Below are positions 1,180 through 5,426 of a stretch of DNA of 50,414 nt, one piece after another. The notes under the pieces were generated by a model. The model was not told where the DNA came from and searched no databases. It saw only the letters and a list, made by a program, of their open reading frames with translations. The DNA is from an uncultured Pelagibacteraceae bacterium (GTDB taxonomy: Bacteria > Pseudomonadota > Alphaproteobacteria > Pelagibacterales > Pelagibacteraceae). The translations under genes were made by a program, and so were the position numbers. Every line of letters starts with the position of its first letter. The first letter of the stretch is position 1. The DNA lies in contig CACGGB010000005.1 in the NCBI GenBank assembly GCA_902572475.1, positions 1 through 50,414 of the forward strand, read 5' to 3'.

Positions 1180-2120
1180 TGTCTATAGATTCTAAATTTC
1201 TAAATTTATTTATTAAAGCAACAGAAAAAGCTGCTATAGGAGCCTCTAAATTTATCGGAAAGAATGATAAAATAGCTGCAGATAAAGGAGCGGTTGACCC
1301 GATGAGAAGAGAATTAAATAAGATAAATATGGAGGGAACAATAGTTATTGGAGAAGGGGAAATGGACGAAGCACCAATGCTATATATTGGAGAAAGACTT
1401 GGAACTTTGAACGGACCTAAATTCGATATAGCTGTTGATCCTTTAGAGGGAACAAAATTTACAGCAAATAACCAACCTAATGCTTTTTCTGTTCTTGCTG
1501 TTTCAAAAAAAGGAGATCTGTTATCTGCTCCCGATACCTATATGGAAAAAATTATAATCGGTCCAAATTTACCTAAAAATCTATTAGATATTGATAATGG
1601 AGTTGAAAAAAATATTAAATTATTGGCTGAAGCAACTAATAAAGATATTTCAAAAATTAATGCATGCGTTATGAAAAGACCAAGACATGACAAAATAATA
1701 GAAATACTTTCAAACATGAGAGTTAATATAAACTACATAACTGATGGAGATATTGCAGGAGCTTTGAGTGTAATTGGGAAAAATCCGAAAAATGATATTT
1801 ATTATAGCACAGGAGGTGGACCTGAGGGAGTTCTAGCAGCTGCAGCATTATCTTGTTTTGGAGGACAAATTCAAGGACGTCTTGTTTTAAATGAAGAAGA
1901 AAAAATTAGGGCAAAAAAATTAGGAATTAAAGATTTCAATAAAAAATATAACATAGATGACATGATTAAAGGTGATATTATATTTTGTGCCACAGGTGTT
2001 ACAGATGGGGATTTGGCAAAAGGTGTTAAAGATCTCGGCAACGAATATGAGGTCACCACATTTGCATTACACAAAAGTAAAAAAATAAATAAAATAATTA
2101 CAAATATATATAATAAATGA
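1179..2120 (+). CDS. glpX: Class II fructose-1,6-bisphosphatase GlpX
   Basis: Hydrolyses fructose-1,6-bisphosphate to fructose-6-phosphate for gluconeogenesis in the cytoplasm. At 313 residues it has the usual length for the family. It carries the metal-binding segments GEGEMDEAPMLYIGE (about residues 59-73) and AVDPLEGTKF (about 86-95), and the late motif GGGPEGVLAAAAL. The start overlaps the hom stop by one base and its stop shares four bases (ATGA) with the recJ start, so the three genes are probably one transcript. No class I FBPase is seen here. Confidence 0.95.
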   Translation: MSIDSKFLNLFIKATEKAAIGASKFIGKNDKIAADKGAVDPMRRELNKINMEGTIVIGEGEMDEAPMLYIGERLGTLNGPKFDIAVDPLEGTKFTANNQPNAFSVLAVSKKGDLLSAPDTYMEKIIIGPNLPKNLLDIDNGVEKNIKLLAEATNKDISKINACVMKRPRHDKIIEILSNMRVNINYITDGDIAGALSVIGKNPKNDIYYSTGGGPEGVLAAAALSCFGGQIQGRLVLNEEEKIRAKKLGIKDFNKKYNIDDMIKGDIIFCATGVTDGDLAKGVKDLGNEYEVTTFALHKSKKINKIITNIYNK

Positions 2121-3904
2121 TTTCAAATTCAGTAAGTAATAAAAACTGGGTTTTTAGAAAATACAACGAACAAGATCTTTTATTTTATAAAGAAAATTAC
2201 TCGTTAGACGAAATAACATCAAAGCTTTTATCAATTAGAAATATTAAAAAAGAGGAAGTTCAAGCTTTTTTAAGCCCTTCTATAAAGAATTTTTTACCTA
2301 ATCCCGAAATAATTAACGATATGCAAAAATCTACGAAAAGGACCGCTAATGCAATTTCACAAAATCATAAAATTGGAATTTTTGGTGATTATGATGTAGA
2401 TGGTGCTTCAGCAACAGCATTACTTGCAAATTTTTTTAATTCAATAAATGTTCCATATGAAATTTATATACCAGACAGAAAAAAAGAGGGTTACGGGCCT
2501 TCTGCAGAGTCTTTTAAAAAACTAATTGATAATGGAGCTAAATTAATAATTACAGTAGACTGTGGAACACTTTCCTTTAAAGCAATTGAATATGCTTCTA
2601 ATAATAAAACTGATGTAATTGTTCTTGACCACCACCAATCAGAAATTAATTTACCTAAGGCCTACTCCGTAGTCAATCCAAATAGATTAGACGATAAGTC
2701 TAAATTGAATTATTTGTGTGCAGCTGGAGTAACTTTTATGTTTTTAATTGCTTTAAATAAAGAATTAAGATCAAACAATTGGTTTTTTAAAACAAAAGTA
2801 ATTGAGCCAAATTTACTGGAATATCTAGATTTAGTTGCTTTAGGAACTATTTGTGATGTAGTTCCTTTAGTTGGTCTAAACAGAGCAATTGTTTCACAAG
2901 GATTAAAGATTTTAAATTCGAAAAAAAATTTAGGGTTAAAAACGTTATTTGATATTTGTGATATTCGAACTAAACCAAATGTTTACCATATCGGTTATCA
3001 ATTAGGACCAAGAATTAATGCAGGAGGTAGGGTAGGAAAATCTTCTCATGGAGCAAATTTATTAATTAGTAATAACCCAAAAGATGCTTTTAAGATTGCT
3101 TCCGAATTAGATCATTTTAATAAAGAGAGGCAAATTTTAGAAAAAGACGTAATGGACAAAATTTTGAATGTTTTAGGGAATGAAATAAATGAGCCGGTAA
3201 TTATCATTTATGGTAAAAATTGGCATGAAGGTGTAATTGGAATAGTAGCATCTAGAATTAAAGATAAATACAATAAACCAGTAATAATAATTTCATTAAA
3301 CGATAATGGGATTGGAAAAGCATCTGCTAGGTCCATTGTTGGATTTGATATTGGTTCAGTAATTATTTCTGCCGTTCAAGAAAATATTTTAATAAAAGGT
3401 GGGGGGCATAAAATGGCAGGAGGATTTACAATTGAAATTAGCAATTTTGAAAAATTTAAAAGCTTTATTCTTAGTAAATTTAAGAAACTGAGTAATAGTA
3501 TTTCCAATATTAAAACTTTATATTTAGACAGTGTAATAGCTCCAACTGCCTTAAATCTTCAATTTTATAATAAAGTTAATGCGCTTGCTCCTTTTGGATC
3601 TGGAAATCCTGAGCCAAAGTTTGTTTTGGAGAATATGAAGTCTGTTAATAATAAGATTATTAAAGATAAACATATAAAATCAGTTTTAGTCGGATTAGAT
3701 GGATCAACAATCAAATCAATGGCATTTAACTGCGTCGAAAACGAAATTGGAGTACATTTACTTAAAAAAGATAAAAAATTATTTAATATTGCGGGTAAAT
3801 TATCCTTGAACGAGTGGCAGGGGCAATCAAATGTGGAGTTTATTATCGATGATATTTCTGTTAATAAGAAACTCAAAAATACGGTCCCATCGTCTATCGG
3901 TTAG
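2117..3904 (+). CDS. recJ: Single-stranded-DNA exonuclease RecJ
   Basis: 5'-3' single-strand exonuclease of recombination and mismatch repair. At 595 residues it is full length for RecJ. DHH-family motifs are clear: FGDYDVDG (about residues 89-96), the DHH motif in VLDHHQ (about 171-176) and, in the DHHA1 part, KGGGHKMAGGF (about 428-438). The start overlaps glpX by four bases. The 3' end is unusual: the last seven sense codons and the TAG stop (3902-3904) lie inside the tRNA-Glu gene that begins at 3883, so the C-terminal VPSSIG is encoded by the tRNA acceptor and D-arm. RNase P cleavage at the tRNA 5' end would remove the recJ stop codon from the message. Confidence 0.95.
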   Translation: MISNSVSNKNWVFRKYNEQDLLFYKENYSLDEITSKLLSIRNIKKEEVQAFLSPSIKNFLPNPEIINDMQKSTKRTANAISQNHKIGIFGDYDVDGASATALLANFFNSINVPYEIYIPDRKKEGYGPSAESFKKLIDNGAKLIITVDCGTLSFKAIEYASNNKTDVIVLDHHQSEINLPKAYSVVNPNRLDDKSKLNYLCAAGVTFMFLIALNKELRSNNWFFKTKVIEPNLLEYLDLVALGTICDVVPLVGLNRAIVSQGLKILNSKKNLGLKTLFDICDIRTKPNVYHIGYQLGPRINAGGRVGKSSHGANLLISNNPKDAFKIASELDHFNKERQILEKDVMDKILNVLGNEINEPVIIIYGKNWHEGVIGIVASRIKDKYNKPVIIISLNDNGIGKASARSIVGFDIGSVIISAVQENILIKGGGHKMAGGFTIEISNFEKFKSFILSKFKKLSNSISNIKTLYLDSVIAPTALNLQFYNKVNALAPFGSGNPEPKFVLENMKSVNNKIIKDKHIKSVLVGLDGSTIKSMAFNCVENEIGVHLLKKDKKLFNIAGKLSLNEWQGQSNVEFIIDDISVNKKLKNTVPSSIG

Positions 3905-3957
3905 GACAGTTGGTTTTCATCCAACAAAGAGGGGTTCGATTCCCCTTGGGACCGCCA
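3883..3957 (+). tRNA. tRNA-Glu (anticodon UUC)
   Basis: The acceptor strands GGTCCCA and TGGGACC pair fully. The anticodon stem is GTTGG/CCAAC (3909-3913 and 3921-3925) with the seven-base loop TTTTCAT, giving anticodon TTC at 3916-3918. The T-arm contains GGTTCGATTCC, the discriminator base is G, and CCA is encoded at 3955-3957. The first 22 bases overlap the recJ end and a coding start follows 6 bases after CCA. Confidence 0.97.
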
Positions 3958-3963
3958 AAAAAA

Positions 3964-4920
3964 ATGCATAAAGTAGCAATTATAGAAAAAATTCACCAAG
4001 ACGGAATAAATTTATTAAAAAATAATTCAGCGTTTGAATTTGAAATAATCGAAGATGCTTCTGAAGAAAATTTAATAAAAGTACTACCTAATTTTGATGC
4101 TTGCACACTTAGGGTTTCAAAATTAAATGAAAAAATTCTATCTAAATGTAAAAATTTAAAGGTTATATCTAGACATGGTGTTGGATATGATAATGTCGAT
4201 TTAAATTATATTAAAAAAAACAAAATAACTTTATTAATAACCGCTACTGCGAATGCAGTGGCTGTAGCAGAACATGTAATTTACATGATGCTATCAATAT
4301 CTAAAAGTATTAATCAATATGACCAGGAAGTTAGAATTGGAAATTTTAAAAAAAATGCGTCTACTATTACTACTTTAGAACTTTTTAAAAAAGAGATTCT
4401 AATAGTTGGATTTGGAAGGATAGGTCAAAGTTTAATCAAAAGATGTAAAGGTTTCGAGATGAAAGTAAAAGTATTTGATCCTTTTGTTAATAAAGAGACT
4501 ATTGAAAGATTTGGAGGACAAAAAATTGAAAATCTCGATGATGGATTAAAATTTTGTGACTATGTTTCTTTACATGTTCCGTTAAATGAAAAAACTAAAA
4601 ATTTAATTGATTATTCTAAACTTAAGAATATGAAAAGAGAAGTAATTGTAATCAATACTGCAAGAGGTGGAATTATCAACGAAAACGATTTAGATAAGGC
4701 ATTGAGAGAGAATATAATTTTTGGAGCAGGGTTAGATGTTTTTGAAAAGGAGCCTATAGATAAATCCCATCCTCTATTATCAAATAAAAAAGTCTTATTA
4801 AGTCCGCATTCAGCAACATTTACAAATGAGTGTAAATCTAGAATGTCTTTAGAGACTACTAAAAATATAATTGATTTTTTTGAGAATAAGATTGATAAAT
4901 CTATGATTGTAAAATTATGA
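3964..4920 (+). CDS. D-2-hydroxyacid dehydrogenase (phosphoglycerate dehydrogenase-like)
   Basis: NAD-dependent 2-hydroxyacid/2-oxoacid oxidoreductase of the D-isomer-specific family, 318 residues with no ACT domain. It shows the nucleotide-binding GFGRIGQ (about residues 150-156), the substrate arginine in NTARGG, the glutamate in FEKEP and the catalytic histidine in LSPHSA near the C-terminus. The true substrate cannot be told; SerA-like or hydroxypyruvate-type activity is possible. The frame stays open upstream to 3910, but those 18 codons are the tRNA-Glu sequence, so I start at ATG 3964. No Shine-Dalgarno is visible: only six A separate the tRNA CCA from ATG. The stop overlaps the next gene by four bases. 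Confidence 0.85.
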   Translation: MHKVAIIEKIHQDGINLLKNNSAFEFEIIEDASEENLIKVLPNFDACTLRVSKLNEKILSKCKNLKVISRHGVGYDNVDLNYIKKNKITLLITATANAVAVAEHVIYMMLSISKSINQYDQEVRIGNFKKNASTITTLELFKKEILIVGFGRIGQSLIKRCKGFEMKVKVFDPFVNKETIERFGGQKIENLDDGLKFCDYVSLHVPLNEKTKNLIDYSKLKNMKREVIVINTARGGIINENDLDKALRENIIFGAGLDVFEKEPIDKSHPLLSNKKVLLSPHSATFTNECKSRMSLETTKNIIDFFENKIDKSMIVKL

Positions 4921-5426
4921 TAGACATAAGTAGAAAATTAAAAAACTTTGGTCCATTAGAAGCATTAGTATTAAGTTCTATAACATATGTAGTTGTAATG
5001 TTATTATGGACGGCTTCTACCAGATCAGAAGTAATACAAAAAGCAAACGATATAAAATCTAATCACAAATCAGTTGTCGATTTTATAAATAATGAGGTAA
5101 ATACTTGTAGCTCGAATGTTGAGAGCCTAACATCTTGGGGAGAGAAATGTAATTCTGTTTGGACCTCTGATAAAATCGTAAGTTATGTGTTATCGAACAT
5201 AGATTTAAAAAACCCATATTCAATTAATAAACCCTTAATACAAACCTCTCAAGATCCTAGAATTCAGGCTGAAGGAAAAGCAGGTCAATCTACAGACAAA
5301 GGTATAATTTTCGTTTCCTCAAATAATTTTGAGTCAGAAGCGGGATCCGAATGGGTAGTTGGTACTTGTATTAAGTCACCATGCGTAGCTGCTGGTAATA
5401 ATGAATTAGTCTCGGTATACCGTTAA
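4917..5426 (+). CDS. Hypothetical membrane-anchored protein with four cysteines
   Basis: I do not recognise this 169-residue protein. It has a short polar N-terminus, one hydrophobic segment (about residues 14-32), a helical stretch, and a mainly polar C-terminal domain with four cysteines (about residues 62, 77, 150 and 155), which would suit two disulfides outside the membrane. A single N-terminal membrane helix followed by a long amphipathic helix recalls type IV pilin-like proteins, but there is no canonical prepilin cleavage site with glutamate at +5, so this is only a guess. The start overlaps the upstream dehydrogenase stop (ATGA), implying coupled translation. The stop overlaps the convergent iolE stop by two bases. 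Confidence 0.6.
   Translation: MIDISRKLKNFGPLEALVLSSITYVVVMLLWTASTRSEVIQKANDIKSNHKSVVDFINNEVNTCSSNVESLTSWGEKCNSVWTSDKIVSYVLSNIDLKNPYSINKPLIQTSQDPRIQAEGKAGQSTDKGIIFVSSNNFESEAGSEWVVGTCIKSPCVAAGNNELVSVYR

Follow-up and report, generated by a model that had tools for sequence, protein, structure and literature searches.

A recJ stop codon inside tRNA-Glu, and a putative tRNA promoter within recJ codons, in a SAR11 lineage

The window considered here is the whole stretch of DNA that was analysed, 50,414 nucleotides from an uncultured Pelagibacteraceae bacterium of SAR11 (contig CACGGB010000005.1; its closest named relatives are likewise uncultured Pelagibacteraceae), in which recJ ends inside a tRNA gene on the same strand. 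The features at this locus are as follows.

1179 to 2120, + strand: glpX (class II fructose-bisphosphatase), with a 4-nt overlap with the recJ start
2117 to 3904, + strand: recJ (single-stranded-DNA exonuclease), 595 aa, from the open reading frame list, TIGR00644 and the domains DHH, DHHA1 and RecJ_OB
3883 to 3957, + strand: tRNA-Glu(TTC), with an encoded CCA at 3955-3957, from ARAGORN and Rfam RF00005
3883 to 3904, + strand: the recJ/tRNA-Glu overlap, 22 nt on the same strand, from the open reading frame and tRNA coordinates
3902 to 3904, + strand: the recJ stop TAG, which is nt 20-22 of tRNA-Glu in the tRNA fold
3964 to 4920, + strand: a 2-hydroxyacid dehydrogenase-like CDS, with its ATG 6 nt past the tRNA-Glu CCA

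The open reading frame at 2117-3904 scores 541 bits against the TIGR00644 recJ model (cut-off 397), with RecJ_OB at residues 471-579, and Rfam RF00005 matches tRNA-Glu(TTC) with 59 bits over 3883-3954. An earlier, sequence-only reading of this DNA had placed the recJ end and its stop codon within tRNA-Glu, and the coordinates of the two genes (2117-3904 and 3883-3957) agree with it. The same reading counted seven recJ sense codons within the tRNA; the overlap with its TAG stands, and the count becomes six whole codons and a third base, as nt 1-22 of tRNA-Glu consist of the third base of ACG, the codons GTC CCA TCG TCT ATC GGT (VPSSIG) and the recJ TAG. In the fold, the first two bases of this TAG belong to the D-loop and its last base opens the 3' D-stem strand, and only one frame of three in the window tRNA-Glu holds a stop codon, namely the TAG at nt 20-22. 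Upstream, an open reading frame at 1-1179 overlaps glpX by 1 nt, and the 1-nt and 4-nt gene overlaps suggest that recJ closes a tightly packed operon. The overlaps along this frame, glpX and recJ also resemble those of translationally coupled operons. Downstream, a ribosome-binding site for the 2-hydroxyacid dehydrogenase-like CDS would not fit outside tRNA-Glu.

The close-relative set comprised 39 loci with 37 distinct recJ sequences, of which 26 loci came from the genus and 13 from a second collection, the latter being chosen as close relatives by recJ identity of at least 57% and not by taxonomy; recJ was present in 47 of the 61 genomes searched. A 22-nt overlap ending at the D-loop TAG was found in 29 of the 37 distinct sequences, and in four the recJ stop (three TAA, one TGA) lies flush before tRNA-Glu. 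The remaining layouts are represented by one sequence each: a 9-nt gap between recJ and tRNA-Glu (L024), a contig that ends inside tRNA-Glu (L010), a tRNA-Glu displaced to 938 nt from recJ (L017), and a more distant member of Pelagibacteraceae with no tRNA-Glu near recJ in the fetched flank (L064, RIS_SAG_06). Matches to recJ in relatives extend to residue 595 at identities as low as about 61%.

A pattern joining the recJ end to tRNA-Glu was found in 98 of 169 genus genomes, including 13 of the 14 that are at least 90% complete. Among these 98 genomes, the recJ frame reaches the D-loop TAG in 85 (a count that includes a displaced copy outside recJ in G021), ends flush in eight, leaves a gap in two, and in three ends at a TAG whose G is the first tRNA-Glu base. 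Codon 582 lies 20 nt from tRNA-Glu in 88 of the 98, with 62 distinct spacer sequences, and the 21-nt spacers (n = 8) put recJ in the open frame, all of them with a stop flush before tRNA-Glu. The near-complete genome missed by the pattern (G070) also has the 22-nt overlap (L247), so that, of the 14 genus genomes with a completeness of at least 90%, 12 have the overlap; the remaining two are G169, with a flush stop, and G021, with the displaced tRNA. The pattern was absent from 71 of the 169 genomes, of which 27 were examined. In these 27, recJ was found in 11 (nine with the overlap, one with a gap, one with a contig end inside the tRNA) and no recJ match was found in 16. Fourteen of them, picked and mostly more complete, gave recJ in seven, six with an overlap of 22 nt, and a 10-nt gap was seen in L250; the further 13 gave nine without a recJ match, the overlap in G007, G025 and G028, and a contig end inside the tRNA in G013.

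The sequence-only reading had named two observations that would speak against it. The first, a recJ that ends upstream in relatives, is found in a minority (four flush and one gapped of the 37), while most relatives overlap; the flush and gapped relatives show that the overlap can be dispensed with, which does not make it false. The second, a sequence error bearing on whether the recJ stop lies in tRNA-Glu, draws some credit from the incompleteness of the window's assembly (58% complete), but the same layout recurs in many separate genomes, including those 12 of at least 90% completeness, and the chance that an assembly or sequencing error put the stop there is next to negligible. Since this tRNA-Glu has only one stop-bearing frame and the arrangement recurs, the overlap is more than chance, and the recJ stop inside tRNA-Glu is genuine and conserved, an instance of extreme genome compaction. 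As a general tRNA property in the genome, the overlap was ruled out, because tRNA-Glu is the only tRNA that runs into an upstream open reading frame in three genomes with 76 tRNAs (2/76, in G000 and G036, with the displaced copy in G021). Two apparent overlaps among 22 control tRNAs (L229 and L230, TAG 21-23 nt into the tRNA) were taken, by eye, as chance frames competing with another open reading frame in DNA of 56% and 65% GC.

The order of the two genes extends well beyond the genus. Among 67 more distant loci, mostly of Alphaproteobacteria and including one (L118) in which recJ runs off the contig without a stop, a same-strand tRNA-Glu lies downstream of recJ within a 1.5-kb flank in 36, and the overlap was found in none of these 36. 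The gap between the genes is 38-123 nt in 26 of the 36. In the sister family f2, gaps of 45-47 nt were present in all four loci fetched, and the f2 gap carries, by eye, a pair resembling TTGATT / TATATA. A 50-nt gap also separates recJ from tRNA-Glu in L066 (CP.15, a more distant member of Pelagibacteraceae). Because the pair occurs with a gap and without overlap in the distant and f2 loci, the recJ to tRNA-Glu order is old and the overlap arose in or near the genus. A quick recJ tree places the overlap on deep branches and requires at least four changes between overlap and no overlap, counts that cannot separate gain from loss in a tree with an unresolved base, in which L064 was excluded from the state count and L010 was scored as overlapping. 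The short gaps of L024 and L250 may represent the ancestral state. The VPSSIG tail lies beyond the end of RecJ_OB (residue 579) and is missing in flush relatives, and on both grounds it is probably functionless.

Upstream of the overlap, the codons of recJ are conserved in a way that the protein does not call for. The following features were delimited within this region, the hexamer limits being picked by eye.

3836 to 3868, + strand: candidate non-protein element in recJ codons 574-584, from synonymous constraint and as the best-kept part of the L017 remnant
3839 to 3844, + strand: -35-like TTTATT, by eye
3845 to 3861, + strand: spacer of 17 nt, by eye
3859 to 3860, + strand: TG, extended -10-like, by eye
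3862 to 3867, + strand: -10-like TAATAA, by eye

Codon choice was measured in recJ columns with a conserved amino acid. The excess codon identity was 0.76 in the 12 columns of the block (within codons 572-584), compared with 0.08 (sd 0.29) in the 235 others, a value reached by none of 20000 resamples. In a thinned set of 25 sequences less than 85% identical, with L064 excluded, it was 0.72 in 11 block columns versus 0.04 in 237 (0/50000 resamples), and the best contiguous recJ window elsewhere reached 0.26. Base-by-base conservation, numbered back from tRNA-Glu, was followed in 26 chosen sequences, consisting of 22 of the 25 thinned ones (L022, L024 and L065, with other spacing, were left out) and L245-L248. 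Third positions are invariant at -45, -42 and -39 (GAGTTTATT) and at -24, -21 and -18 (TCTGTTAATAA), while those at -36, -33, -30 and -27 vary somewhat (21-24 of 26 alike) and positions -13 to -11 are variable. The strongest synonymous constraint thus lies around GAGTTTATT and TCTGTTAATAAG. These patterns of codon choice indicate a further signal in recJ codons 574-584, one other than the protein itself. RNA structure was set aside as the cause of the frozen block, as no RNA fold signal was detected over 3830-3915 (z -0.38).

The displaced tRNA-Glu of L017 (genome G021) serves as a natural experiment. In this genome, a NeuB-like open reading frame (Pfam NeuB, 79 bits; translation checked) sits between recJ and tRNA-Glu, and a decayed, partial duplicate of the recJ 3' end is retained before the displaced tRNA. 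Compared with the relative L015, whose recJ protein is identical to that of L017 at 553 of 584 residues, this remnant is closest in -16..-57, with 39 of 42 positions alike, and keeps 12 of 15 in -1..-15; the agreement falls to 30 of 45 in -58..-100, 25 of 51 in -101..-140 and, beyond -140, where the alignment fails, 21 of 114. For comparison, L015 and L020 agree at 170 of 181. Moreover, the own copy of recJ in L017 has lost TAATAAG. As the frozen block is the best-kept part before the displaced L017 tRNA, it appears to serve tRNA-Glu, most likely as its promoter.

The arrangement TTTATT-17-TAATAA, with TAATAA ending 15 nt before tRNA-Glu, agrees with the pattern of constraint, with the reservations that position -19 within TAATAA varies (A in 21 and T in five of 26 sequences), that two third positions ahead of the proposed -35 (-57 and -54) are also invariant, and that the limits were set by eye. 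The varying -19 and the invariant -57 and -54 mean that the block is not neatly two hexamers. The match to consensus is weak, each hexamer agreeing at three of six positions with TTGACA/TATAAT. A sigma-70 scan of 3500-5000 returned nine sites, about as expected from shuffles (8.4), of which none on the + strand fell within the block and two on the - strand lay over it. A custom hexamer scan of 76 tRNA upstream regions scored tRNA-Glu low (7.8, range 6.6-11.0) and favoured TTTATT-15-GTTAAT before it. A promoter call by consensus was dropped, both scans being negative for TTTATT/TAATAA. Since the consensus scans do not pick the hexamers, the promoter claim rests on the constraint and on L017. 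With this basis, the element inside recJ seems to belong to the tRNA and is probably a tRNA-Glu promoter, which we infer and call putative; the frozen block might instead be a regulator site. Of the ways out offered by the sequence-only reading, separate promoters for recJ and tRNA-Glu gain comparative support from the synonymous constraint and the L017 remnant.

Other causes of the frozen block were weighed against a promoter. Conserved codons could in principle also result from gene exchange at the tRNA or from selection acting on the RecJ protein, because tRNA neighbourhoods are often exchanged and the amino acids of the block are conserved too. However, codons are not frozen at other conserved amino acids of recJ, an exchanged tract would differ from a block with a more variable middle followed by a variable spacer, and in L017 the block persists outside the recJ frame, which speaks against both. 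Such an origin is considered very unlikely, and protein selection, RNA fold and gene exchange all fit the frozen block less well than a promoter does.

The overlap has consequences for the shared RNA. As the sequence-only reading had pointed out, an RNase P cut at 3883 would strip recJ of its stop, and the same RNA molecule cannot serve as a complete recJ message and also give a mature tRNA. Its further statement that a single transcript cannot yield both holds per molecule but is too strong otherwise, as it ignores the order of events in time. The 3' acceptor strand of tRNA-Glu (3948-3957) is made 44-53 nt after the recJ stop, and a ribosome that follows RNA polymerase closely could therefore complete RecJ before a substrate for RNase P exists. 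Regulated processing or heavy use of ribosome rescue, also suggested there, gained no such support from the comparison; tmRNA and SmpB are present, but this is normal for bacteria. Of 37 genomes, comprising 23 of the genus and 14 of f2, 30 have tmRNA (16 and 14, respectively) and 33 have SmpB (20 and 13), and each was found in 14 of 14 near-complete genomes, mostly of f2; in the window's own genome (58% complete), tmRNA was found and SmpB was not.

It is quite probable, in our judgement, that compaction led to an embedded promoter and an independent tRNA, the overlap being a tolerated result of streamlining and not a dedicated switch. The compared loci show that an old recJ to tRNA-Glu pair was drawn together by compaction in one SAR11 lineage until recJ lost its own stop and took up the TAG of the tRNA's D-loop region. 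The tRNA promoter, which in the sister family f2 seemingly lies in the gap, would now be embedded in recJ codons 574-584. tRNA-Glu would then come from its own short transcript, starting a few bases before 3883 and independent of recJ mRNA, while RecJ would be made from an upstream operon transcript, as the gene overlaps suggest. On that transcript, leading ribosomes would reach the TAG before tRNA-Glu folds, and RNAs cut later by RNase P would become nonstop messages left to ordinary tmRNA/SmpB rescue or to decay. The VPSSIG tail would be a by-product without function. Given its persistence through most of the genus, the overlap might also be selected and not merely tolerated.

A known system with a comparable layout is selB-selC, in which tRNA-Sec is nested in or partly overlaps selB (Mukai 2021, PMC8124441), and which its author, in the accessible text, presents as the first case of a tRNA nested within an ORF for a bacterial protein. 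As in recJ, the 3' end of a protein gene overlaps a same-strand tRNA, with the translated tRNA forming a C-terminal tail; the selB stop has a fixed position inside the tRNA in Dyella/Luteibacter; and in some selB relatives the stop precedes the tRNA or an insertion keeps the two apart (PMC8124441, accessible text). Both systems thus have the stop of a real gene in a real same-strand tRNA, conserved together with relatives that lack the overlap. They differ in that the stop of the partial overlap there lies at nt 46-48 and that of recJ at nt 20-22 (PMC8124441, accessible text), in that the recJ coding sequence holds a promoter-like element, as suggested by its synonymous constraint, and in that the recJ case belongs to a streamlined free-living lineage. 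The model described for selB-selC follows the logic of an either/or switch and predicts nonstop and leaderless RNAs (PMC8124441, accessible text). Applied to the present locus, one transcript would yield either RecJ or tRNA-Glu, and recJ translation and tRNA folding would repress each other. The geometry permits this, with the stop in tRNA-Glu and the next ATG just past its CCA, and the overlap is held by 29 of the 37 sequences. The overlap is nevertheless missing in relatives (four flush, one gapped and one displaced of 37), in three of the 98 pattern genomes recJ already ends at the first tRNA base, and tRNA-Glu would be freed from recJ mRNA by a promoter-like element of its own. Furthermore, the products of selB and selC are functional partners and those of recJ, a nuclease, and of the tRNA-Glu gene, a general tRNA, are not known to be; to our knowledge, no functional link between RecJ and tRNA-Glu exists. 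A switch is thus considered unlikely.

A different possibility concerns gene starts next to tRNAs. In three genomes of the genus (G000, G036 and G021), 24 of 76 tRNAs have, 0-9 nt past their CCA, the ATG of a same-strand open reading frame of at least 100 codons, compared with three of 27 in one f2 genome and none of 22 control tRNAs from other Alphaproteobacteria, which were the top-scoring loci of three genomes and no random draw. No Shine-Dalgarno signal was found at 41 open reading frame starts of the window, taken as the first ATG (motifs in 2/41 versus 3/41 in a control stretch). In this genus, tRNAs may act as punctuation before near-leaderless genes. Together with the negative consensus scans and the presence of tmRNA and SmpB in most genomes, these numbers would also suit one long transcript with tRNA punctuation like that of mitochondria, in which tRNA-Glu has no promoter of its own, processing frees the genes, and nonstop recJ messages are routinely rescued. 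In animal mitochondria, protein genes abut tRNAs and excision can leave stopless messages (PMC9674279, accessible text), and tRNA-Glu here likewise lies directly between protein genes, with 22 nt of overlap upstream and 6 nt to the ATG downstream. In contrast to mitochondrial stops, which are completed by polyadenylation (PMC9674279, accessible text), the recJ TAG is fully encoded; the bacterial locus also has a bacterial RNase P and tmRNA, and its tRNA-Glu apparently has its own promoter instead of depending on a genome-long transcript. Such punctuation covers the downstream side, but it leaves the frozen upstream synonymous sites and the L017 block without explanation, and as the full account of the locus it is quite unlikely.

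In compact SAR11 genomes, coding sequences commonly lie very close together or overlap slightly, and a median intergenic length of 3 nt was given for 'Ca. Pelagibacter ubique' (PMC2704228, accessible text). The same SAR11 RNA survey makes no mention of recJ in the main text, as far as accessible, and lists one CDS-RNA overlap, thyX-tmRNA, which was attributed to a wrong annotated start (PMC2704228). No report of a recJ-tRNA overlap in SAR11 was present among the literature matches listed, in a search whose coverage left out most subscription journals. The same-strand overlap of a CDS and a tRNA is itself known from selB-selC, and the probable embedded tRNA promoter is the main addition. A broader picture, which we regard as doubtful in its entirety, would have a 120-bp stretch combine recJ coding, a tRNA-Glu promoter in synonymous sites and a D-loop stop, all three maintained jointly across most of the genus, with RecJ and tRNA exclusive on each read-through RNA and a wider SAR11 habit of tRNA punctuation ahead of near-leaderless genes.

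At the recJ/tRNA-Glu locus, conserved among these bacteria, a general rather than a specialised tRNA gives a protein gene its stop, and a control element, probably the tRNA promoter, would be concealed in the synonymous sites of recJ. The locus is a counterexample to annotation rules that bar CDS-tRNA overlap, and it offers a simple test case for the race between ribosomes and RNase P along a shared RNA. SAR11 are among the most abundant bacteria of the ocean, and recJ and tRNA-Glu illustrate how far their streamlining goes.
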